Of a stretch of 64,000 bases of DNA, positions 14,999-63,979 are shown piece after piece. The first letter of the stretch is position 1. Each line of letters begins with the position of its first letter. Source of the DNA: Vibrio ziniensis. Lineage in GTDB: Bacteria; Pseudomonadota; Gammaproteobacteria; Enterobacterales; Vibrionaceae. The translations under genes and the position numbers were made by a program. The stretch spans positions 620,001 through 684,000 of the forward strand of contig NZ_CP049331.1 of assembly GCF_011064285.1 (NCBI RefSeq). The letters are read 5' to 3'. The notes below the pieces were generated by a model, which ran no database searches, had not been told where the DNA came from, and was given only the letters and a program-made list of their open reading frames with translations.

Positions 14999-16006
14999 CT
15001 AAACGTATTGAGCCAAGTATTCGTTCGTTTGTTCAGTCATACGCGCTTTTTCCTGATCAGAAATGAAACTTGCTTCAATCGCATTCAAGGTGAATTGCGC
15101 TAACTCTTGGTAAGACATCGGGTGAGCATCCGCAACCGCGTTGAAGTTATCAGTCATATACCCACCAAAATAAGCTGGGTCGTCAGAGTTGATGGTCACA
15201 CAAAGCCCCTGACGTAGCAGTTGCACGATATTGTGTTGCTCCATTTGCTGAAAAACTTTCAGTTTCAAGTTAGAAAGAGGGCATACTGTCAATGGCATAC
15301 GAGTTTGTTTAAGCTCTTCCACTAATGCGACATCTTCAACACAACGCACACCGTGGTCGATACGTTGTACACCCAAAAGGTCGATAGCATTACGAATATT
15401 GAGCGCCGGACCTTCTTCACCAGCGTGTGCGACAGTAATGAACCCCGCGTTTCTCGCTTCACGGAAAACATTCATAAATTTCTCTGGTGGATGACCTTGC
15501 TCTGATGAATCTAACCCGACACCAACGATTTTATCTTTAAATGGTAATGCTTGAAGCAAGGTTTCCATCGCTGCTGGTTCGCTAAGATGACGTAAGAAAC
15601 ACATAATGATTTGACTAGAAATCCCCAGTTCTTGCTGCGCTTTTTCCAAAGATTTGCTAATACCGTTAATCACTGTTTCAAACGCAATACCACGACCGGT
15701 ATGGGTTTGTGGATCAAAGAAAATCTCAGTATGGATAACGTTATCTTGCTTGCAACGAAGCATATATGCCCAAGTTAGGTCAAAGAAATCTTGCTCGTGA
15801 ATGAGGACGTTAGCACCCTGATAATAGATATCGAGAAATGACTGTAGGTTGGAAAACTGATAAGCGGCACGAACTTCTTCTGGCGAAGAGAAAGGAATAT
15901 CTATGTTGTTACGTTTTGCCAGTTCAAACATCAACTCAGGCTCAAGAGAACCTTCAATGTGCAAATGCAGCTCGACTTTTGGAAGTTTTTGGATAAATGG
16001 TTTCAT
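14999..16006 (-). CDS. add: Adenine deaminase (adenosine deaminase superfamily, type 2)
   Basis: A 335-residue member of the adenosine/adenine deaminase superfamily. Zn ligands are visible in KVELHLHIEGSLEPEL (HxH, about residues 12-14), TVAHAGEEGP (His and catalytic Glu, about 193-198) and TINSDDPAYF (Asp). The N-terminus and the DPQTHTGRGI stretch resemble bacterial adenine deaminases of the PA0148 type more than classical adenosine deaminase. An adenine-type riboswitch in its leader (16117-16183) supports adenine as substrate, giving hypoxanthine and ammonia. In V. vulnificus the gene carrying the well-studied adenine riboswitch is named add. It is monocistronic. Confidence 0.85.
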   Translation of the reverse strand: MKPFIQKLPKVELHLHIEGSLEPELMFELAKRNNIDIPFSSPEEVRAAYQFSNLQSFLDIYYQGANVLIHEQDFFDLTWAYMLRCKQDNVIHTEIFFDPQTHTGRGIAFETVINGISKSLEKAQQELGISSQIIMCFLRHLSEPAAMETLLQALPFKDKIVGVGLDSSEQGHPPEKFMNVFREARNAGFITVAHAGEEGPALNIRNAIDLLGVQRIDHGVRCVEDVALVEELKQTRMPLTVCPLSNLKLKVFQQMEQHNIVQLLRQGLCVTINSDDPAYFGGYMTDNFNAVADAHPMSYQELAQFTLNAIEASFISDQEKARMTEQTNEYLAQYV

Positions 16007-16116
16007 ATATGCTCTTAATCCTCATGTGATTAATCGCTTTTCATTTTGAGTGGTGTTTTACCGGAAAGGTAAATGGAGCCCATACAAAGAGAAAGCGACA
16101 ACCTATTCGCTTAACT

Positions 16117-16183
16117 CTTCGTAATCAGAATTTTACGGATTCTGGTAGAGACCCCCACACCGTATCAGTGGGGTTATACGAAG
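16117..16183 (-). ncRNA. Purine riboswitch aptamer, adenine type
   Basis: Read on the minus strand, CTTCGTA and TACGAAG form P1. The conserved core follows: TATAA, the first hairpin CCCCACTGATACGGTGTGGGG, TCTCTACC in J2/3, the second hairpin AGAATCCGTAAAATTCT, then GATTACGAAG. The first loop (TGATACGG) and second loop (CCGTAAA) can form the loop-loop contact. The specificity base in J3/1 is U (GAUUAC), as in the adenine class, where guanine riboswitches have C. It lies 110 nt upstream of the adenine deaminase start. The rest of the 373-base gap shows only the nptA terminator. The expression platform is not clear to me. Confidence 0.93.
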
Positions 16184-16339
16184 CAACTTATACTACATTT
16201 TTTAGTTAGCCTTGCTCATTGACAGCAATCACTATCGTTAAAAATGAAAATAACAAACTTTAAACAAATGATAACGTAATTATTGGTAATTGCCACTTTT
16301 AACAATAAACAGAGATGATGGTCGAACTTCAGATACAAC

Positions 16340-49699: not shown

Positions 49700-49714
49700 T
49701 GAAAATTATCCTTA

Positions 49715-49738
49715 TAAAAAAACCTCCCAGTGGGAGGC
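49715..49738 (-). terminator. pheA attenuator
   Basis: On the minus strand CCTCCC/GGGAGG with a 3-nt loop, followed by TTTTTTT, ending about 16 nt before the pheA ATG. Upstream, GGAGGCT is fully complementary to AGCCTCC of the terminator's 5' arm and would form the antiterminator. An A-rich block (AAAAAAAAGTCAAAAACGAAC) can pair with the Phe-codon stretch. Confidence 0.88.
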
Positions 49739-49788
49739 TTTCTGTTCGTTTTTGACTTTTTTTTCTTAAACGACTTAGCCTCCAAAGG

Positions 49789-49836
49789 TTATTGGAGAAA
49801 AAAGAAGTCAAAAAAGAACAGTTGAGTATTTTGCAT
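49789..49836 (-). CDS. pheL: PheL leader peptide
   Basis: A 15-residue ORF, MQNTQLFFFDFFFLQ, with six Phe codons in two runs of three, ending TAA. It lies about 50 nt before the attenuator stem and about 90 nt before pheA. When Phe-tRNA is scarce the ribosome should stall on these codons, free the downstream A-rich block and allow the antiterminator. E. coli PheL (15 residues) is likewise Phe-rich. It is too short to be found by usual gene calling. Confidence 0.88.
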   Translation of the reverse strand: MQNTQLFFFDFFFLQ

Positions 49837-54911: not shown

Positions 54912-57485
54912 ATGCGTCTCGACAGATTTACCAGCAAATTTCAAATAGCGATTTCCGACGCCCAGTCACTCGCACTAGGGCGAGATCACCAATACATCGA
55001 ACCTGTGCACCTGATGGTTGCGCTGCTAGATCAAAATGGCAGCCCGATTCGTCCATTGCTGACCATGCTTGACGTCGATGTCATGCAGCTTCGCTCCAAA
55101 TTGGGGGAAACGTTAGATCGTTTACCAAAAGTGAGCGGGATCGGCGGTGATGTACAGCTTTCTAGCGGCTTAGGTACTTTGTTCAACCTGTGTGACAAAG
55201 TGGCTCAAAAGCGCCAAGACTCGTACATATCTTCTGAGATTTATCTTTTGGCTGCGATTGAAGATCGCGGTCCGCTTGGTCAAATTCTTAAAGAGTTTGG
55301 TTTAACTGAGAAAAAAATCTCAGATGCGATTGAAAAGATCCGCGGTGGTCAGAAAGTGAATGACCCGAATGCGGAGGAGCTGCGTCAGGCTCTCGAAAAA
55401 TTTACTATCGATCTTACTGAGCGAGCAGAGCAGGGTAAACTTGACCCTGTTATCGGTCGTGACGACGAGATCCGCCGAACCATTCAAGTATTGCAACGTC
55501 GTACCAAAAATAACCCTGTGATCATCGGTGAACCGGGCGTTGGTAAAACGGCAATTGTTGAAGGTTTGGCACAGCGCATTATCAATAACGAAGTGCCAGA
55601 AGGATTACGTGGACGCCGCGTTTTATCCCTTGATATGGGCGCACTCGTGGCGGGTGCAAAATACCGTGGTGAGTTCGAAGAGCGATTGAAATCGGTGTTG
55701 AATGAGTTAGCCAAAGAAGAAGGCAACATCATTCTGTTCATCGATGAGCTGCATACCATGGTGGGCGCGGGTAAAGGCGAAGGTTCAATGGACGCTGGCA
55801 ACATGCTCAAACCTGCACTTGCGCGCGGTGAGCTTCACTGTGTAGGGGCAACAACGCTTGATGAATATCGTCAATACATCGAGAAAGATCCTGCGCTTGA
55901 GCGCCGTTTCCAAAAAGTGCTGGTGGATGAGCCGAGCGTGGAAGACACCATAGCAATTTTGCGCGGCTTGAAAGAGCGTTATGAACTTCACCACCACGTA
56001 GAGATTACTGACCCTGCGATTGTTTCGGCAGCAACGCTGTCTCATCGATATGTGTCAGATCGCCAGTTACCAGATAAAGCGATTGACCTGATTGACGAAG
56101 CGGCTTCAAGCATTCGTATCCAAATCGACTCGAAACCAGAAGCGTTGGACAAACTGGAACGTCGTATCATTCAGTTGAAAATTGAGCAGCAAGCGCTGTC
56201 GAATGAAACGGATGAAGCCAGCGAAAAACGTTTAAGTATTCTCAACGAAGAGTTGGGGCTAAAAGAGCGTGAATACGCTGAACTAGAAGAAGTTTGGAAA
56301 ACAGAAAAAGCGGCATTATCAGGTACTCAGCACATTAAAACGGAACTTGAACAAGCTCGAATGGACTTAGAAGTTGCAAGACGTGCAGGTGATTTAAGCC
56401 GTATGTCTGAGCTGCAATACGGTCGTATTCCAGAGCTGGAAAAGCAACTTGATCTTGCTGCTCAAGCTGAAATGCAAGAGATGACTCTGCTACGCAACAA
56501 AGTGACAGATACCGAGATTGCCGAGGTGCTGTCTAAGCAAACGGGTATTCCTGTTTCGAAAATGCTGGAAGCAGAAAAAGAGAAATTGCTTCGCATGGAA
56601 GACGTTCTGCATAAACGTGTCATTGGGCAAGTTGAAGCGGTTGAAGTGGTCGCGAATGCGATTCGCCGTAGCCGTGCCGGTTTGTCTGACCCTAACAAAC
56701 CGATTGGTTCGTTCCTATTTTTAGGTCCAACCGGTGTGGGTAAAACTGAGCTTTGCAAAACGTTGGCTCACTTTATGTTTGACAGCGAAGACGCGATGGT
56801 TCGTATCGATATGTCCGAGTTTATGGAGAAACACTCTGTGGCTCGTTTAGTCGGTGCACCTCCGGGATATGTGGGTTATGAAGAAGGCGGTTATTTAACA
56901 GAAGCGGTTCGTCGTAAACCTTACTCTGTCATCTTGTTAGATGAAGTGGAAAAGGCGCATCCCGATGTGTTCAACATTTTGTTGCAAGTGCTTGATGATG
57001 GTCGTTTAACTGACGGTCAAGGTCGTACGGTTGATTTCCGTAACACGGTAGTGATCATGACGTCGAACTTAGGCTCTTCAAGCATTCAGGAAAACTTCGC
57101 AAAACTGGATTATCAGGGTATCAAAGAGCGAGTGATGGAAACCGTAACCAAACATTTCCGTCCTGAGTTCTTAAACCGTGTTGATGAATCGGTAGTGTTC
57201 CATCCGCTTGGCAGAGAACATATTAAATCTATTGCTTCTATTCAGTTGGAACGTTTACATAAGCGCTTAGCTGAAAAAGACTACGAGTTAGCGGTTAACG
57301 AAGAAGCATTGGAGCTAATTGCTCAAGTGGGCTTTGATCCTGTTTACGGTGCTCGTCCCTTGAAACGCGCTATTCAACAGAATATTGAGAACCCGTTAGC
57401 GAAGTCTATTCTGTCTGGAAAATTCTTACCGGGCAAACCGATCCAACTTGGTGTTCGAGATGGCAATATCATCGCCAGTCAATAA
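54912..57485 (+). CDS. clpB: ClpB disaggregase
   Basis: An 857-residue Hsp100 ATPase: Clp-N domain (1-~145), NBD1 with Walker [14 protein letters not shown] (about 208), coiled-coil middle domain (about 410-525, [15 protein letters not shown] onward), and NBD2 with Walker [15 protein letters not shown] (about 607). The substrate-gripping loops ([22 protein letters not shown]) are intact. ClpB resolves aggregates with DnaK. An alternative internal start that would give the short ClpB form is not resolved here. It ends before a terminator. Confidence 0.97.
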
Positions 57486-57762: not shown

Positions 57763-58749
57763 TCATTTAGCAAAGTTGGCGTTAATGCGCATTTTTAAAT
57801 AGTCCTGCGCTGTGATTGGCTCGTAAACTTTCTTTGGTCCTTGAATGATTTGGTCACGGTTTGCTTGGCAGAAAAACGCCATACTGTAGCGCGAATCCTG
57901 GTTTTCTTCGGCGGTTGGCATGCGTACGCGGTGCAGAGTTGATTTGAGCAAATCATCACTCCAACGCATCAACATATCTCCAATGTTGCACGTAATCACT
58001 CCTGCTTTAGGTTCAACAGTGCTCCACACCAGATTCTCTTTTGCATCTTTACCTGCAGCTGCTTGTAATCCACCTTGGTTCTCTTGTTGGAATACCATAG
58101 TTAAACAGTCAAAGTCGGTATGTGCACCTGCACGCCAGAAAGTACCGGTTTGCGGAACTTCTTTCATTGGCAAGTAGTGAAGCATACGCAAGGTGCTAAG
58201 GTAATTTTCAGACTCTCTTTGATGCGCTTTAGTGAAAAAGTCGCGCTCAAATCCCAGCTTGTCAGCAAAGCAAGAGAGGATCTTCATGCCCAATTGCCAT
58301 GCTTGATGCTCAAATGAAAGCAGGTGCGATTCAAAACCTTCCACTAACGTATTGCTTGGCCATAGGTCACTCATGTGAGGAAGAGTGATTTGGTAAGACT
58401 CTTTTTGATCTGCTGTACCCGTTGACGGGCGAACTTGTTGTTTAAATTCCCAGCCCGCATTTAACCCTTCTTTTAAAGGGAACTGCTGTTTTTCTTCGAT
58501 AGGAAGTGCAAAGAATTGTTCGCTTAACTTAAAGGACTTTTCGATATCAGCTAAAGCAATACCGTGCTCAACCAGTTGGAAAAAGCCAACTTCTGTTGCG
58601 GCTTTCCAAAGCTGCTCGGTGATCTCTTCTCGGCGATGATCAAAGTCATGCAAGTTGATCATAGGGATCACGGTGTCGCTGGTCTCTAACCCTTTGCCAC
58701 CGATGGTTGTCTCAAAGTTAAGTTCGTCTAAAAGATATGATTGACTCAT
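57763..58749 (-). CDS. Isopenicillin-N-synthase-like 2OG/Fe(II) oxygenase
   Basis: A 328-residue protein with a DIOX-N domain (about 15-130) and the double-stranded beta-helix (about 170-300). Fe ligands fit HxD in GAHTDFDCLTMV plus a distal His in KSTLHRVRMP, with RYSMAFF as the co-substrate Arg motif. ATG 58749 has GGAG 7 nt upstream; a TTG four codons earlier is unlikely. Its leader carries a xanthine-type riboswitch (58782-58843) whose P1 strand can mask that GGAG, so the substrate may be an oxidised purine. It is the last of a minus-strand purine gene set. Confidence 0.82.
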   Translation of the reverse strand: MSQSYLLDELNFETTIGGKGLETSDTVIPMINLHDFDHRREEITEQLWKAATEVGFFQLVEHGIALADIEKSFKLSEQFFALPIEEKQQFPLKEGLNAGWEFKQQVRPSTGTADQKESYQITLPHMSDLWPSNTLVEGFESHLLSFEHQAWQLGMKILSCFADKLGFERDFFTKAHQRESENYLSTLRMLHYLPMKEVPQTGTFWRAGAHTDFDCLTMVFQQENQGGLQAAAGKDAKENLVWSTVEPKAGVITCNIGDMLMRWSDDLLKSTLHRVRMPTAEENQDSRYSMAFFCQANRDQIIQGPKKVYEPITAQDYLKMRINANFAK

Positions 58750-58781
58750 TGTTTTCTCCAATTAAGCATTTGCTTGTTATT

Positions 58782-58843
58782 GGAGCAATGTCCAGCAATA
58801 AGCCAAGAACCTTATTCTTGGTATTACAGACCGCTTCTACTCC
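58782..58843 (-). ncRNA. NMT1-motif (xanthine/urate) riboswitch A, before the oxygenase
   Basis: On the minus strand GGAG/CTCC closes P1 around the conserved UAGAAGCGG and GGACAUUG. The variable arm is long: GUAAUA/UAUUGC and CCAAGAA/UUCUUGG. The 3' P1 strand CTCCAAT is complementary to ATTGGAG, the oxygenase ribosome-binding site (perfect 7 bp), with an AAGC-AAAT-GCTT hairpin between. Ligand holding P1 closed would free the site: an ON switch, by inference. Motif identification is from memory of the NMT1 class. Confidence 0.88.
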
Positions 58844-58850
58844 GTTGTTT

Positions 58851-58889
58851 GCTCTTTCTAATCAAAGTGTTGCTTTAACCAGTTAGAGC
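58851..58889 (-). other. Hairpin between the deaminase gene and riboswitch A
   Basis: On the minus strand GCTCT/AGAGC and CTGGTTAAAG/CTTTGATTAG (wobbles allowed) form a 39-nt hairpin that ends 7 nt before riboswitch A. No U-tract follows. It could be processing, partial termination or a stabiliser between the importer operon and the oxygenase. Confidence 0.5.
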
Positions 58890-58925
58890 AAATTGAATAT
58901 TTGTAGGTTAATTCATCGAGAGTTA

Positions 58926-59402
58926 TTACCAAACCCCGTGTTGAACTTGTTCTGCCTCTTCTTCAAGTAGCGGACCGATGACTTCGACTTCGCGTTGACC
59001 TGATTCAAAAACCACTCGGCATGGAAGTGCCAAGGTTGGGTTCTCGGGATGATTGCCGGTTAACTCTTTGAGCTTGGCTTCGCTCAGACCGTAAACAACA
59101 CGTCCAACGCCTGCCCAGTAAATGGCACCCGAACACATCGCGCAAGGCTCTGCAGATACATACAGAGTGCAACGGTTAAGAAAATCTGGGCGATAAAGTT
59201 TGCTTGCGCGAGTCATAATGACGCGCTCCGCATGACCCGTCATATCGAAATCCGGTAGATAACCGTTGATCTCTTCCAACAGAATATCACCGTGTTCATC
59301 GACCAATACTGCTGAAAATGGGTGAATCCCCCTCGATTTTGCATCTTCTGCCAAAGAGAAGCTGTAGCGTAACAATTTGAAATCCGTTTCCTGGTTAAAC
59401 AT
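58926..59402 (-). CDS. Guanine-deaminase-like cytidine-deaminase-fold enzyme
   Basis: A 158-residue zinc deaminase. The ATG at 59402 has an AAGGA ribosome-binding site; a GTG eight codons upstream is possible. Zn ligands are in MTGHAERVIM (HAE) and AEPCAMCSGAIYWAGVGRVV (PCxxC). The EPCxMCxGAIYWA block and length (about 156) resemble B. subtilis guanine deaminase GuaD. If so it makes xanthine from guanine. It lies 24 nt after the permease gene as the last gene of the transporter operon. Other substrates such as cytosine or related bases cannot be excluded. Confidence 0.78.
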   Translation of the reverse strand: MFNQETDFKLLRYSFSLAEDAKSRGIHPFSAVLVDEHGDILLEEINGYLPDFDMTGHAERVIMTRASKLYRPDFLNRCTLYVSAEPCAMCSGAIYWAGVGRVVYGLSEAKLKELTGNHPENPTLALPCRVVFESGQREVEVIGPLLEEEAEQVQHGVW

Positions 59403-59426
59403 TTCTTGTCCTTGTTTGTTATGCAC

Positions 59427-60209
59427 TTAACGTTGTTTTTCTTCTTCAGTCAGGCTCCAAGAGAAGTAACCTTTTTGCACCCAACTAACGGCTTTGAACA
59501 GCAACATACTGACTAGAGATAGGAATACCAGTGCTGCAAAAGCTTGGGGGATTTTGAAATAAGACGTTGAAAACTGAACCAAGTAACCGAGACCTTTTTC
59601 AGCAGCAACAAATTCAGCGATAACTGAACCAATAACTGCCAACGTGATGGCAACTTTCACACCGCTGAAAATGTGAGGAATGGCGTAAGGTAGGCGAATT
59701 TGCCAAATGGTTTTACTGTTTTTCACACTGAGTGAACGAGACAACTCAATCAGTTCAGGTGGTGTAGCTAACATCCCTGTCGTTGCTGAAACCACGAGAG
59801 GGAAGAAGGTAATTAAGCAAGTGATGGTTAGACGTGGAGCATCACCCGTTCCTAAAATCACAATCAGTAGAGGAGCGATAGCAACCACAGGTGTGGATTG
59901 AATCACCACCAGAATGGGAAACAATGCGCGAGTTAGAAACTTCGAGTTCACCATCAAGATAGCAAGCGGAATACTAATCAAGAATGAGATAACAAAACCT
60001 AATAACGCAATACGTAACGTTGCCCATAGGTTATCAAGCCAACGTTCCATTGGTACCTGAGTGAAGGCAATAGCGATATCGCTAGGCGCTGGCAAGATAA
60101 ACGTTGGTACGGAGAAAATTTTACAAATGGCTTCCCAGATAGGAATGATCGCTAATATTGCAATCAGTGGCAGCCAGTTTTGTGACCATTGAGAAAACAA
60201 TCGTTTCAT
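59427..60209 (-). CDS. ABC transporter permease (NMT1-type nucleobase importer)
   Basis: A 260-residue inner-membrane permease with about six helices and the EAA-type loop EAxxx-like region (LSVKNSKTIWQIRLPYAIPH). The ATG at 60209 follows an AAAGGAAT ribosome-binding site; an upstream TTG adds six residues. Its fold is that of SsuC/TauC/ThiX-type permeases. It is the third gene of the operon sbp-ATPase-permease-deaminase. Ligand inferred from the riboswitch upstream and the deaminase next to it. Confidence 0.85.
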   Translation of the reverse strand: MKRLFSQWSQNWLPLIAILAIIPIWEAICKIFSVPTFILPAPSDIAIAFTQVPMERWLDNLWATLRIALLGFVISFLISIPLAILMVNSKFLTRALFPILVVIQSTPVVAIAPLLIVILGTGDAPRLTITCLITFFPLVVSATTGMLATPPELIELSRSLSVKNSKTIWQIRLPYAIPHIFSGVKVAITLAVIGSVIAEFVAAEKGLGYLVQFSTSYFKIPQAFAALVFLSLVSMLLFKAVSWVQKGYFSWSLTEEEKQR

Positions 60210-60233
60210 ATCTATTCCTTTAGACAAGTGCCG

Positions 60234-61076
60234 TTAAGCGACGGTTTTACGAATCGGCTCAACGTTGTCGTTATTCTTACTTTCCGTTTCTTCACTGCTT
60301 ACTGAGTCGCTCTTTTCTGAACGATAGAAATATTCGCGAATTTTGTTGGTGTAAGTACCAAACTTAGCGTCTTGAAGCGTATGTATGTTGCGTGGACGAG
60401 GCAGATCGATCTTGATCTCTTCCAACACGGTACTTGGACGAGGTCCCATAACCAGTACTTTATCCGCGAGCAATACTGCTTCTGAAATCGAGTGAGTGAT
60501 GAACAGAACCGTCTTTGGTTTCTCCATCCAGATTTTTTGCAGTTCAAAGCCCATCTCCTCGCGCGTTAATGCATCCAAAGCCGAGAAAGGTTCATCCATG
60601 ATCAAAATGTCTGGATTGAGCAGTAATGCACGTGCGATACCCACACGCTGTTGCATACCACCGGAAAGTTGGTCAGGCATACTGTTTTCAAAACCTGCTA
60701 GTCCAACCGTGTTCAATAGCTCTTGTGCATTTTGACGGTCTTTCTGGCTGACATAATTGAACTTATGTTTAAGTGGAAACAGAATGTTATCGAGGATGTT
60801 TTTCCATGGTAGTAATGTTGGTTTTTGGAAAACAATACCGATGTCTTCACGTGGTCCAGTTACTGGGTGTCCAAAAACGGAAATTTCACCCTGTGTTGGA
60901 ATGATTAACCCTGACAGTAGGCGCAGCAAGGTAGACTTGCCGCAACCTGAAGGACCAACGATGGCGACGAACTCATGTTTTTCCACATTGAAGTCGACAT
61001 CGTTGAGAACCGTAACCGAATGTTTGTCAGAGTTATAGGTATGACCTATACGCTTGAACGAAACAAATGGTTGCAT
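60234..61076 (-). CDS. ABC transporter ATP-binding protein (NMT1-type importer)
   Basis: A 280-residue ATPase: Walker A GPSGCGKST (about residue 45), Q-loop VFQKPTLLPWKNI, signature LSGGMQQRVGIARALL (about 140) and Walker B ILIMDEPFSALDALT. It has the short C-terminal extension of SsuB/TauB-type import ATPases, with an acidic Ser-rich tail. Its start overlaps the stop of the substrate-binding gene (TAATG), so the two are translationally coupled. Confidence 0.92.
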   Translation of the reverse strand: MQPFVSFKRIGHTYNSDKHSVTVLNDVDFNVEKHEFVAIVGPSGCGKSTLLRLLSGLIIPTQGEISVFGHPVTGPREDIGIVFQKPTLLPWKNILDNILFPLKHKFNYVSQKDRQNAQELLNTVGLAGFENSMPDQLSGGMQQRVGIARALLLNPDILIMDEPFSALDALTREEMGFELQKIWMEKPKTVLFITHSISEAVLLADKVLVMGPRPSTVLEEIKIDLPRPRNIHTLQDAKFGTYTNKIREYFYRSEKSDSVSSEETESKNNDNVEPIRKTVA

Positions 61077-62077
61077 TAGTTCACTCCCTCGTAAAACTGA
61101 CGATCAACTGCTGTTTCTGGGTCAAGTTTGCTGAGATCTAAACCTTGAGCTTCTGCTGTCCATTTCCATGTTTCGTTCAGACGAGATGGCGTAAACTGAC
61201 CAACACCGTCACGCTGTGAAACTTCGTTCAACACTAGACCATGGATAGACTTGATGGTGTCAGCTGCTTGTTTTGCATCGACTTCTGGAACCATTTTCGT
61301 TACGTCAGCGCCACTTTCTTCAGGATGCGCCCAAGTGTATTCCACTGCTTTGGCGTAAGCTTTCACAAAGCGTTTCACCACATCAGGGTTTTTAGCCATG
61401 AATTTTTCGCTAGCAATAATCGAAGATGAGTAGAACTCTAGACCAGCGTCATACCAAGGCAACACAGTAAGTTTTTTACCTGCTTCAGCGGCTTGCTGTT
61501 CGTTTTTAACACGGTCAGTCATCCAAGAAATCATCACATCAGATTGACCAGTGATCAGCATTGGGTTAAGCGCGCCTGGATCTGCTTTTAATACTTTGAC
61601 ACTTTGTTCTTCAATGCCGTTTTTCTTAAGCATTAAAGGAAGGAATACGTTCGCAGAAGTGAACGGAGAAGTAGCAATAGTTTTACCTGAAACGTCTTTT
61701 ACTGAATTGATACCGGAAGTATCCAAAACATAAAACGCGTAAGGAGCTTTACTAAATAGTGAGTAGATAGCTTTAACTGGCACGTTGTCATTTGCTTTCG
61801 CCACTAACAACGAAACAATGTCTGCTGAACCAATATCTGCTGTACCTGTAGCAATTTTAGTAATTGCGTCGGTCGAACCTTTACCACCAAGGATGGTAAC
61901 GTCTAGGTCCTGCTCTGCAAAAAATCCCTGCTGAACTGCTACGTAAACAGGTGCTTTATCGCCACCAGGAAGCCAGTCAAGTTGAAACGTGACTTTATCT
62001 GCTGCGAAGCTACTTGCTGATGTAAGTAGCAAAGATAGCGACAGGCTTAGTTTGTTGAATTTCGAAATAGTTTTCAT
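61076..62077 (-). CDS. NMT1/THI5-like periplasmic substrate-binding protein
   Basis: A 333-residue binding protein with a signal peptide ending SASSFAADKVTFQ (cleavage about residue 25) and the NMT1-family start of the mature part, LDWLPGGDKAPVYVAVQQGF. GGKGSTDAITKIATGTADIG marks the ligand cleft. NMT1-family importers carry pyrimidine or purine-like molecules. The gene is preceded by riboswitch B (62145-62191) and heads the importer operon, so xanthine, urate or a related purine is the best guess for ligand. Confidence 0.88.
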   Translation of the reverse strand: MKTISKFNKLSLSLSLLLTSASSFAADKVTFQLDWLPGGDKAPVYVAVQQGFFAEQDLDVTILGGKGSTDAITKIATGTADIGSADIVSLLVAKANDNVPVKAIYSLFSKAPYAFYVLDTSGINSVKDVSGKTIATSPFTSANVFLPLMLKKNGIEEQSVKVLKADPGALNPMLITGQSDVMISWMTDRVKNEQQAAEAGKKLTVLPWYDAGLEFYSSSIIASEKFMAKNPDVVKRFVKAYAKAVEYTWAHPEESGADVTKMVPEVDAKQAADTIKSIHGLVLNEVSQRDGVGQFTPSRLNETWKWTAEAQGLDLSKLDPETAVDRQFYEGVN

Positions 62078-62144
62078 AGTTACTCCGTGTCTTCCTTTTC
62101 ACTCTAAAGTGCAGCTTATGTGGGCTGCATCTTTTCGCTAACTA

Positions 62145-62191
62145 TGAGCAATGTCCCGACACCATCATTGGTATCTAACCGCTTCTACTCA
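62145..62191 (-). ncRNA. NMT1-motif (xanthine/urate) riboswitch B, before the importer
   Basis: On the minus strand UGAG/CUCA closes P1 around UAGAAGCGGUU and CGGGACAUUG, with arm GATACCA-ATGA-TGGTGTC. The 3' P1 end and next bases, TCATAGTTA, are exactly complementary to TAACTATGA, which spans the start codon (9 bp), and a GCAGC/GCTGC hairpin lies between. Same predicted ON logic as copy A. Confidence 0.9.
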
Positions 62192-62314
62192 CACTTCCGA
62201 TGATTACAGAGCAATCGGTGTGCCATAAATTTTAAATTGGCGATTTGGTTATTAACTGTACACTAACCAACCGTTAACAGATGGGCTTTGCAGAGGATTC
62301 GGTAATAGTCTTCT

Positions 62315-62474
62315 TTGTATACAATGTTTAACTGTGATTGGATAAATATTGTATGCAATTGCACCTTTGTAATGCATTGCAAGTAGGCTTGGCTCAATAA
62401 TGGTGCAAGAATGACGAGCAAAATTTGCAAGTACTGGGGGTAGGGGACTGGTCTGCAATTTGCATTGTATACAT
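62315..62474. promoter_or_regulatory. Three palindromic operator-like sites between the divergent transcripts
   Basis: TTGTATACAA (62315-62324), TTGTATGCAA (62349-62358) and TTGTATACAT (62465-62474) lie in the 327-base gap between riboswitches B and C. They look like binding sites for a dimeric regulator such as a GntR-family protein. No such regulator is encoded in the window, so this is only a candidate. The promoters for both directions must be here. Confidence 0.45.
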
Positions 62475-62518
62475 TAAAAATTAATGCTCAGAACAGATAA
62501 TGTTTTGTGTATGTTAAA

Positions 62519-62563
62519 TGAGTAGAAGCGGTTAAGAGTAATCAAACTCTGGGACATTGCTCA
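62519..62563 (+). ncRNA. NMT1-motif (xanthine/urate) riboswitch C, before the amidohydrolase
   Basis: UGAG/CUCA closes P1 around UAGAAGCGGUUA and GGGACAUUG, with short arm AGAGT-AATCA-AACTCT. The 3' end TCAAAAGC can pair with GCTTTGA just before and over the amidohydrolase ATG, with one bulged A. A TAAACCGAT/ATCGGTTTA hairpin (62573-62598) lies between and would bring them together. It is divergent from copy B. Confidence 0.9.
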
Positions 62564-62614
62564 AAAGCGAATAAACCGATGAAACAAAATCGGTTTACTT
62601 ATAAGGAAGCTTTG

Positions 62615-63979
62615 ATGAACTACTTAATTAAAAATGCCAACAGTGTCTTTTCGCCTAAGCAAGATATTAAAGATATACGTATCCACGATGGTCTGATTGT
62701 TGAACTAGGACAAAACTTATTGCCTCAGCAAGGCGAAGACGTTATCGATGCAAGTGATTGCGTTATCTATCCCGGCTTTGTCAACACACACCATCATATT
62801 GCACAGTCTATCTTGAAGGGCATACCCGCAGGACTTAATGACGGGTTGGGTGACTGGTTAGCCAGTGTCCCTTATCGTTACTGGCCACAGATTACGCCGG
62901 AGATTATGTATTCAGCGGCGAAGCTTGGGTTTTATGAGTTGTTACGCTCTGGAGCGACAACCTGTGCTGACCACCATTATCTCTACCACGCTAATTCTTC
63001 AATGGAATTAGAAGAGGCGGTTTGGCAAGCCGCAGATGAAATGGGTATTCGGCTGGTCTTATGTCGAGGTGGTGCGACAGTGAAAGGAACTCATAAGGGG
63101 TTAGCGAAAGCAGGCGTTGAACCTGAATCCGTTGAGTTGATGATAAACCGTTTGGAATCTACCCGTACTCGTTATCACCAAGAGGGGGATTTCGCCATGC
63201 GTAAGCTGGTGGTCGCCCCAACCACCGTTGCTCATTCAGCAACACCGAGTGACTTACGCTTATTGTCTGAATACGCAAGAAGCCACAAGTTACGTATGCA
63301 TTCACATATGTTAGAAGTAGATTTCGACAATGAGCAGTCGTTGGCTAAATATGGCAAGGGCATTGTTGAATTCGCACAAAGCTGTGATTGGCTAGGTGAA
63401 GATGTTTGGTTTGCACACTTAGTCAAAGCGACAGAGCAGGATATAAAGCTATTAGCGGAAACAAAAACAGGTATCGCGCACTGTCCGACGTCTAATTGTC
63501 GATTGGGTAGTGGTATCGCTCCAGTGATTAACATGGCTAAAGCCGGAATGCCAATTTCTATTGGTGTGGATGGCTCTGCATCGGCTGAATCGGGTTCTAT
63601 GCTTCAAGAACTGAACCTGACTTGGCTGATTCATCGAGCGCAAAACGGTCCTAAAGCTACAACGTTAGAACAAGTACTTACTTGGGCAAGTAAAGGTGGC
63701 GCAGATATTTTAGGTTTGAGAGGTGTAGGAACAATCGATGTAGGTCAAGCAGCGGATATTGTCTTATACGATATTAACCAACCGCGCTTGTCTGGTTGCC
63801 ACGATTTATCAATGTCTCCAATAATGGCGGGAGAGCCTTCTTATATTAAAGCGAGTTTCATCAACGGTAAGATTGCCTATCGCCATAGCGATGAAGCCAA
63901 ATATCTCAATTTAGTTGAAGAAGTACGTCACTCTATTGCCAAATTAAACCAGCGAGTGCAAAAGCTAGAGGCTCTATAA
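62615..63979 (+). CDS. 8-oxoguanine-deaminase-like amidohydrolase
   Basis: A 454-residue amidohydrolase of the Atz/Trz deaminase group. The ATG at 62615 has AAGGAAG 7 nt upstream; an ATG at 62579 lies inside a predicted leader hairpin. Metal-site residues are GFVNTHHHIAQS (HxH, about 62-66), RMHSHMLEVD (about 233), HCPTSNCRLGSG (about 290) and the Asp of GVDGSASAESG. It resembles PA0142-type 8-oxoguanine deaminases, which make urate; guanine or another aminated purine remains possible. Its leader has riboswitch C. The last ~25 bases of the window hold nothing. Confidence 0.83.
   Translation: MNYLIKNANSVFSPKQDIKDIRIHDGLIVELGQNLLPQQGEDVIDASDCVIYPGFVNTHHHIAQSILKGIPAGLNDGLGDWLASVPYRYWPQITPEIMYSAAKLGFYELLRSGATTCADHHYLYHANSSMELEEAVWQAADEMGIRLVLCRGGATVKGTHKGLAKAGVEPESVELMINRLESTRTRYHQEGDFAMRKLVVAPTTVAHSATPSDLRLLSEYARSHKLRMHSHMLEVDFDNEQSLAKYGKGIVEFAQSCDWLGEDVWFAHLVKATEQDIKLLAETKTGIAHCPTSNCRLGSGIAPVINMAKAGMPISIGVDGSASAESGSMLQELNLTWLIHRAQNGPKATTLEQVLTWASKGGADILGLRGVGTIDVGQAADIVLYDINQPRLSGCHDLSMSPIMAGEPSYIKASFINGKIAYRHSDEAKYLNLVEEVRHSIAKLNQRVQKLEAL

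Follow-up and report, generated by a model that had tools for sequence, protein, structure and literature searches.

The window analysed here, a 64-kb stretch of Vibrio ziniensis DNA (contig NZ_CP049331.1, positions 620,001 to 684,000; coordinates below are those of the window unless stated), contains three genuine copies of the known xanthine riboswitch, which would control, at the level of translation, a single peripheral scavenging module. This module is composed of an ABC importer, a small deaminase, a 2-oxoglutarate-Fe(II) (2OG-Fe(II)) oxygenase and a deaminase of the PRK12393 family, and probably imports an unusual 2-amino purine or pteridine that is then deaminated or oxidised. It appears to run beside a separate core pathway of guanine deaminase, xanthine dehydrogenase, urate oxidase and OHCU decarboxylase. 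In the ligand-free RNAs, the ribosome-binding site or AUG would be hidden by pairing with the 3′ strand of P1 and its flank (clearly so in the modelled oxygenase leader and probably in that of the importer), and ligand binding would stabilise P1, free the site and switch expression on. Such an ON-switched scavenging module is the best explanation of the data as a whole and is held with moderate confidence. The riboswitches seen in the original prediction, which was made from the DNA letters without database searches, are real, its gene functions were partly mislabelled, and the polarity is partly surprising.

The original prediction described three NMT1-motif (xanthine) riboswitches, each directly before a gene, as one regulon, and suggested a covariance search as a check. 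An Rfam 15 covariance scan (cmscan) of the whole window bears this out, with exactly three matches to RF03054 (xanthine riboswitch, NMT1 RNA) above the gathering score of 36 bits: 58778–58847(−) at the oxygenase gene (42.9 bits), 62141–62195(−) at the importer operon (51.1 bits) and 62515–62567(+) at the amidohydrolase gene (49.8 bits). The proposed motif coordinates agree with these to within ~5 nt, the list of open reading frames (ORFs) together with the scan coordinates places each aptamer directly 5′ of a gene, and the idea of a single regulon is judged right. A search of the organism's own genome (4.65 Mb, two contigs) found no fourth RF03054 copy. The 5′ core GAGTAGAAGCGG has three exact copies in the window and six with one mismatch or fewer, against 0.12 expected. 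The 3′ core GGACATTGCTC also has three exact copies, with 1.22 expected at one mismatch or fewer and three reached in 12 of 100 shuffles, and its count alone is weaker evidence than that of the 5′ core. The conserved J1/J2 letters and the P1/P2a pairs are present in all three cmscan alignments, and the P2 arms are unequal in length and sequence, yet paired in the folds. Leaders of the same gene are more alike across the Vibrionaceae than the three window copies are among themselves, which fits old copies and not recent duplication, as had been proposed from the differing arms. The class and its associations with pcbC-, NMT1-, PRK12393- and tadA-like genes are already described in the main text of Yu and Breaker 2020 (PMC7373994); the window copies share its conserved core, P1/P2 layout and placement before the same gene types but, unlike that description, form one cluster of three beside a separate full purine pathway. 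By analogy with the class, which binds xanthine at roughly 3–4 µM, the window aptamers would bind xanthine or urate in vivo.

The oxygenase gene (57763–58749(−); PF14226 and PF03171) begins with an ATG at 58749 within a longer ORF starting from a TTG at 58761. The importer operon spans 58926–62077(−) and encodes, in order of transcription, an NMT1/THI5-like substrate-binding protein (61076–62077(−); PF09084, 162.7 bits), an ABC ATPase (60234–61076(−); PF00005), an ABC permease (59427–60227(−); PF00528) and lastly a small zinc deaminase (58926–59426(−); dCMP_cyt_deam_1, PF00383). The PRK12393 amidohydrolase (62615–63979(+); 598.4 bits, cut-off 543) probably starts at the ATG at 62615 behind AAGGAAG, as supported by its relatives, although a longer ORF runs from 62579.

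The oxygenase leader carries a proposed anti-Shine-Dalgarno element, GCUCCAAU (58779–58786(−)), made up of the P1 3′ strand and flank and predicted to pair with the Shine-Dalgarno sequence AUUGGAG (58756–58762(−)). In the ligand-free fold this pairing is formed by CUCCAAU, and the mean probability that the Shine-Dalgarno sequence is unpaired is 0.03, versus 0.59 with the aptamer imposed. Because the P1 3′ strand can pair with the Shine-Dalgarno sequence, aptamer folding should free it, as in an ON switch. CTCCAAT is present in 10 of 11 and ATTGGAG in all 11 Vibrionaceae oxygenase leaders, with spacers that vary, and the opening-energy change of the window leader is −2.0 kcal/mol versus −0.1 for spacer shuffles (rank 0.02). 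In the importer leader, the proposed anti-start element UCAUAGUUA (62139–62147(−)), from the end of P1 and its flank, is predicted to be able to pair with UAACUAUGA (62074–62082(−)) across the start codon. The AUG is unpaired with probability 0.00 when P1 is blocked, 0.54 in the free RNA and 0.92 with the aptamer, and half of the Vibrionaceae importer leaders (11 of 22) have both CTCATAGTT and AACTATG, again with varying spacers. The AUG of the deaminase leader moves slightly in the opposite direction (0.74 free, 0.52 with the aptamer). In the models, an ON switch is thus clear for the oxygenase leader and probable for that of the importer, and the direction of the deaminase leader is undecided. 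The Vibrio add adenine riboswitch, a translational ON switch, likewise places a purine-deaminating gene under RNA control, although its aptamer class and ligand are different.

Leaders from other genomes were folded in the same manner, with counts that cover only aptamers matching the core letter patterns and from which weaker Vibrionaceae copies may be absent. In a first pass (n=120), deaminase leaders with a start closer than 60 nt were predicted as 30 ON, 4 neutral and 2 OFF (of 36); the corresponding importer leaders gave 3, 1 and 0 (of 4), and oxygenase leaders 6, 2 and 0 (of 8), with 8, 0 and 3 (of 11) beyond that distance. Spacer shuffles were applied to 83 leaders of all lineages with starts within 95 nt, identical leaders having been merged; 67 fall below their own shuffle mean (33/45 deaminase, 7/8 oxygenase, 19/22 importer and 8/8 other), with 36 in the lowest tenth of ranks and four in the highest. 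For swap controls, 143 leaders were thinned to 93 non-redundant ones (51 close and 42 distant), and swapping the ribosome-binding segment among the close leaders gave P = 0.0023. A C follows GGAG in 16 of 27 short-spacer deaminase leaders versus 26 of 89 other genes in the same loci (P = 0.006). When extra Vibrionaceae leaders were added (92 in all), the predictions for this family were ON for all 11 distinct oxygenase leaders, 13 ON, 7 neutral and 0 OFF for 20 importer leaders, and 10 ON, 3 neutral and 5 OFF for 18 deaminase leaders. Refolding at 25°C agreed in outline with the leader predictions. On these models, polarity appears to depend on the individual platform, and ON is commoner than OFF among close-spaced leaders.

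A number of results weigh against ON switching. The oxygenase AUG stays mostly paired in either state (unpaired 0.09 free and 0.10 with the aptamer), and the aptamer state of this leader costs 8.4 kcal/mol (−31.1 versus −22.7) in a model that includes neither ligand nor tertiary contacts, so that these must pay for it. Neither the importer leader of the window (−0.3 kcal/mol, shuffles −0.5, rank 0.52) nor its deaminase leader (−0.3, shuffles 0.1, rank 0.25) differs significantly from its shuffles. Elsewhere, nine deaminase leaders whose starts lie at least 60 nt away came out in the first pass as 2 ON, 2 neutral and 5 OFF, and 52 long importer leaders as 14 ON, 24 neutral and 14 OFF; 7 of 45 close deaminase leaders are predicted OFF, five of them from Vibrionaceae. 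Swapping the anti-element among the 51 close leaders was not significant (P = 0.11), and the 42 leaders with starts beyond 95 nt, a class excluded from the shuffle test, gave no signal (P = 0.6 and 0.72). The leaders are moreover related, and counts such as 67 of 83 are not independent. Finally, the one H. intermedia reporter presented in the main text of Yu and Breaker (PMC7373994) behaved as an OFF switch, with the wild type below a J1 mutant.

The strongest competing explanation is that the riboswitches are conventional OFF switches, in which the pathway products xanthine and urate shut off uptake and deamination. It is a possible account, though clearly the less probable one. The published reporter result and the reasoning given with it (PMC7373994) favour it, as do the five OFF predictions among the 18 Vibrionaceae deaminase leaders and four Pseudomonas leaders of the importer type (L109, L068, L051 and L103), which, in contrast to importer leaders of the Vibrionaceae, are predicted OFF (+3.0 to +4.1 kcal/mol). 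It is harder to reconcile with the anti-Shine-Dalgarno helix of the oxygenase leader and its relatives, which excludes P1, and with an importer AUG that is freer with the aptamer. The class is described as OFF in the main text of PMC7373994, whereas the P1 element of the window oxygenase leader, and probably that of the importer leader, can pair with the ribosome-binding site in the manner of an ON switch. The ON prediction therefore conflicts with a published label resting on one reporter. A literature search including 2020 onward found no report of ON members of the class in the titles and abstract openings listed. If a large part of the class does switch ON, its physiology would no longer be one of preventing products from accumulating but of inducing a scavenging route, which would bear on the remark in PMC7373994 that what cells use these compounds for is "currently not readily apparent".

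The original prediction had also named the enzymes. The oxygenase and the NMT1-type importer operon stand, but the labels guanine-deaminase-like and 8-oxoguanine-deaminase-like are not well supported: the product of 62615–63979 scores 369.7 bits against the 8-oxoguanine deaminase family PRK08203 (cut-off 532) and 115.5 bits against the guanine deaminase family TIGR02967 (cut-off 375.4), and the small deaminase passed no NCBIfam cut-off. Genes for proteins over these family cut-offs lie at other loci of the genome. One of these loci, a core purine operon (L157; G000:C1:1406856–1420264), encodes a guanine deaminase (553 bits, cut-off 375), XdhA, XdhB and XdhC over their cut-offs, an OHCU decarboxylase, the urate oxidase PF06181 and a sugar/nucleoside-type ABC transporter, parts of which resemble B6/BMP families below cut-offs. 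The gene at G000:C1:1513766–1515121 encodes a member of PRK08203, the family named "8-oxoguanine deaminase" (673 bits against a cut-off of 532). The own-genome search found no RF03054 riboswitch at either the core operon or the PRK08203 gene. Judged from these family assignments, deamination of guanine and of 8-oxoguanine is probably served at these other loci. Since members of both families are encoded elsewhere, the riboswitch-linked amidohydrolase probably has a substrate other than guanine or 8-oxoguanine, and the same observation points to an unassigned substrate for the riboswitch-linked enzyme found across Proteobacteria. In another genome (G163), the riboswitch cluster and the core operon are neighbours, with 113 nt between the end of the oxygenase gene and the gene for urate oxidase.

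These scores bear on a second alternative, namely that a guanine deaminase and an 8-oxoguanine deaminase directly make the ligands xanthine and urate, as the original prediction had it. The enzymes do belong to the same broad families, the small deaminase distantly resembles solved guanine deaminases (1wkq, 54 bits), and the class binds both xanthine and urate, as described in the main text of PMC7373994. With both family cut-offs missed and proteins over them encoded elsewhere, the claim is weaker than first made, and a direct-product regulon is unlikely. A caution applies to the PRK08203 part of this argument: the structure 7WW2, related to the genome's PRK08203 protein (387 bits), is titled an isocytosine-specific deaminase, so the family name is no proof of substrate.

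Structural relatives give further clues to the substrate. The nearest sequence in the Protein Data Bank to the 62615–63979 enzyme is 2PAJ (358 bits), from a Sargasso Sea sample, which we take to be the enzyme reported as isoxanthopterin deaminase by Hall et al. 2010, whose abstract is said to describe two active-site threonines together with a Gln and a Tyr. 2PAJ shares the APTT motif of the window enzyme and is 42% identical to it in the structural alignment, but a 15-residue stretch of 2PAJ is missing from the window enzyme, which is a distant relative; a riboswitch-locus enzyme from Rouxiella matches 2PAJ at 673 bits. Many relatives in riboswitch loci have APTS where the window enzyme has APTT, whereas the PRK08203 family (3HPA, 7WW2) has APCS at this position. 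The fold of the latter family is the same (structural Z 50.7–51.0, inseparable), and a fold search with the window enzyme did not tell 2PAJ, 8IS4, 7WW2 and 3HPA apart. Q76 and Y134 are present in the window enzyme and are also invariant in the PRK08203 paralogues (12 loci taken, 11 distinct proteins counted), and are thus non-discriminating. Literature searches found nothing relevant on 2PAJ, and no paper linking 8-oxoguanine deaminase with a riboswitch or isoguanine deaminase with Mycobacterium smegmatis.

A third reading, slightly less probable again than the direct-product regulon, is that the natural ligand is a deaminated pteridine of the lumazine type made by the regulated deaminase. The riboswitch-controlled enzyme would deaminate pteridines like isoxanthopterin, a group plentiful in crustaceans, and the RNA would also sense the 2,4-dioxo product (a lumazine, e.g. 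violapterin) as inducer, a proposal that is likewise doubtful. Xanthine's N-H, C=O, N-H, C=O face could also be presented by such a product, with its larger second ring toward the solvent-open C8 side. Isoxanthopterin itself bears a 2-amino and not a 2-oxo group, so its rejection by the RNA would not exclude its deaminated product as ligand. The presumed identity of 2PAJ speaks for this reading, as does the pocket, which recognises the ligand by its 2-oxo pyrimidine face, with C8 as the only open position: in the crystal structure, as set out in the main text of PMC8266621, G10 and U40 clamp the N3H-C2=O-N1H face, a metal sits on O6, N7 and N9 are contacted, and solvent reaches only C8. The same N7 and N9 contacts may, however, clash with a six-membered second ring. 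Isoxanthopterine and 8-hydroxyguanine are among the compounds bought for the published ligand survey according to its Methods, and its main text reports no binding for them (PMC7373994). The word "lumazine" is absent from the main texts of both papers. If this proposal is true, a scavenging route for pteridines and purines would be switched ON by many of the RNAs now called xanthine riboswitches.

That the motif copies are decayed or non-functional is highly improbable: 10 of 64 Vibrionaceae copies do fall below the RF03054 cut-off and an in-frame stop interrupts one linked deaminase gene, but the three window copies score above it with intact cores, and 20 of 22 genomes keep three copies. The riboswitch occurs in 22 of 296 Vibrionaceae genomes (the remaining two of the 22 have two copies each), and 54 of the 64 copies are above the cut-off. 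These genomes were compared with 18 riboswitch-free genomes, out of 20 listed among the 274 with no match. PRK12393 is over its cut-off in 21 of 22 riboswitch-bearing genomes versus 0 of 18 riboswitch-free ones, the exception (G232) being the genome whose riboswitch-linked deaminase gene (G232:C1:2183464–2184285) carries the in-frame stop and scores below the cut-off. All 22 riboswitch-bearing genomes encode OHCU decarboxylase, PF02738 (xanthine dehydrogenase type), guanine deaminase and PF06181, versus 12, 13, 14 and 12, respectively, of the 18 riboswitch-free genomes. The module is a patchy add-on, confined in the sampled Vibrionaceae to genomes with urate-degrading genes. Across Proteobacteria, a contig scan with a sample biased to exact cores identified at least 153 distinct aptamers in at least 150 loci, followed by genes for at least 57 binding-protein relatives (some at only 20–26% identity), at least 46 amidohydrolases and at least 20 oxygenases; 30 of the 153 had no assigned gene, and eight of these had a good start no more than 95 nt away and entered the shuffle test as "other".

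A GntR/FCD-type regulator may add transcriptional control to the scavenging module, as suggested by a palindrome, TTGTATACAA, that could be a GntR operator. Three sites are located between the divergent leaders: an exact copy (62315–62324) and two with one mismatch each, TTGTATGCAA (62349–62358) and TTGTATACAT (62465–62474). The exact palindrome is present in the corresponding region in 11 of 23 Vibrionaceae loci examined. Genome-wide there are seven exact sites versus three for the pattern read backwards; one is in the riboswitch region, one is upstream of a transporter gene by the core operon (L157:14496), two are at the GntR/FCD regulator gene (L199:2356 and 2565), and three are elsewhere. 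The regulator lies at G000:C1:1380972–1381691. Of the 22 riboswitch-bearing genomes, 20 have relatives of the regulator (61–100% identity in 12 and 36–40% in eight), as do 12 of the 18 riboswitch-free genomes (34–38%), in nine of which the relative lies within ~3 kb of the PF02738 gene.

Terminator control was considered and rejected. Terminator-like sites are located within P2 of the oxygenase aptamer (58821–58803(−)) and near the importer leader (62109–62130(+)), the latter on the strand opposite to that leader, but the total of eight such sites is close to the 5.8 seen in shuffles. Promoter-like sites are fewer than in shuffles (6 versus 11.3) and prove nothing.

The riboswitch cluster sits between clpB (54912–57485) and an rRNA operon that starts just past the window end (L159:8445), which might be the insertion site of an acquired cassette. 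Two other RNA elements are present in the same 64 kb. A purine riboswitch (RF00167, 79.2 bits) at 16102–16201(−), a second purine-sensing RNA, precedes an adenosine deaminase gene (14999–16006(−); NCBIfam 550 bits, cut-off 419), and a phenylalanine leader attenuator (RF01859, 83.1 bits) is located at 49714–49833(−).

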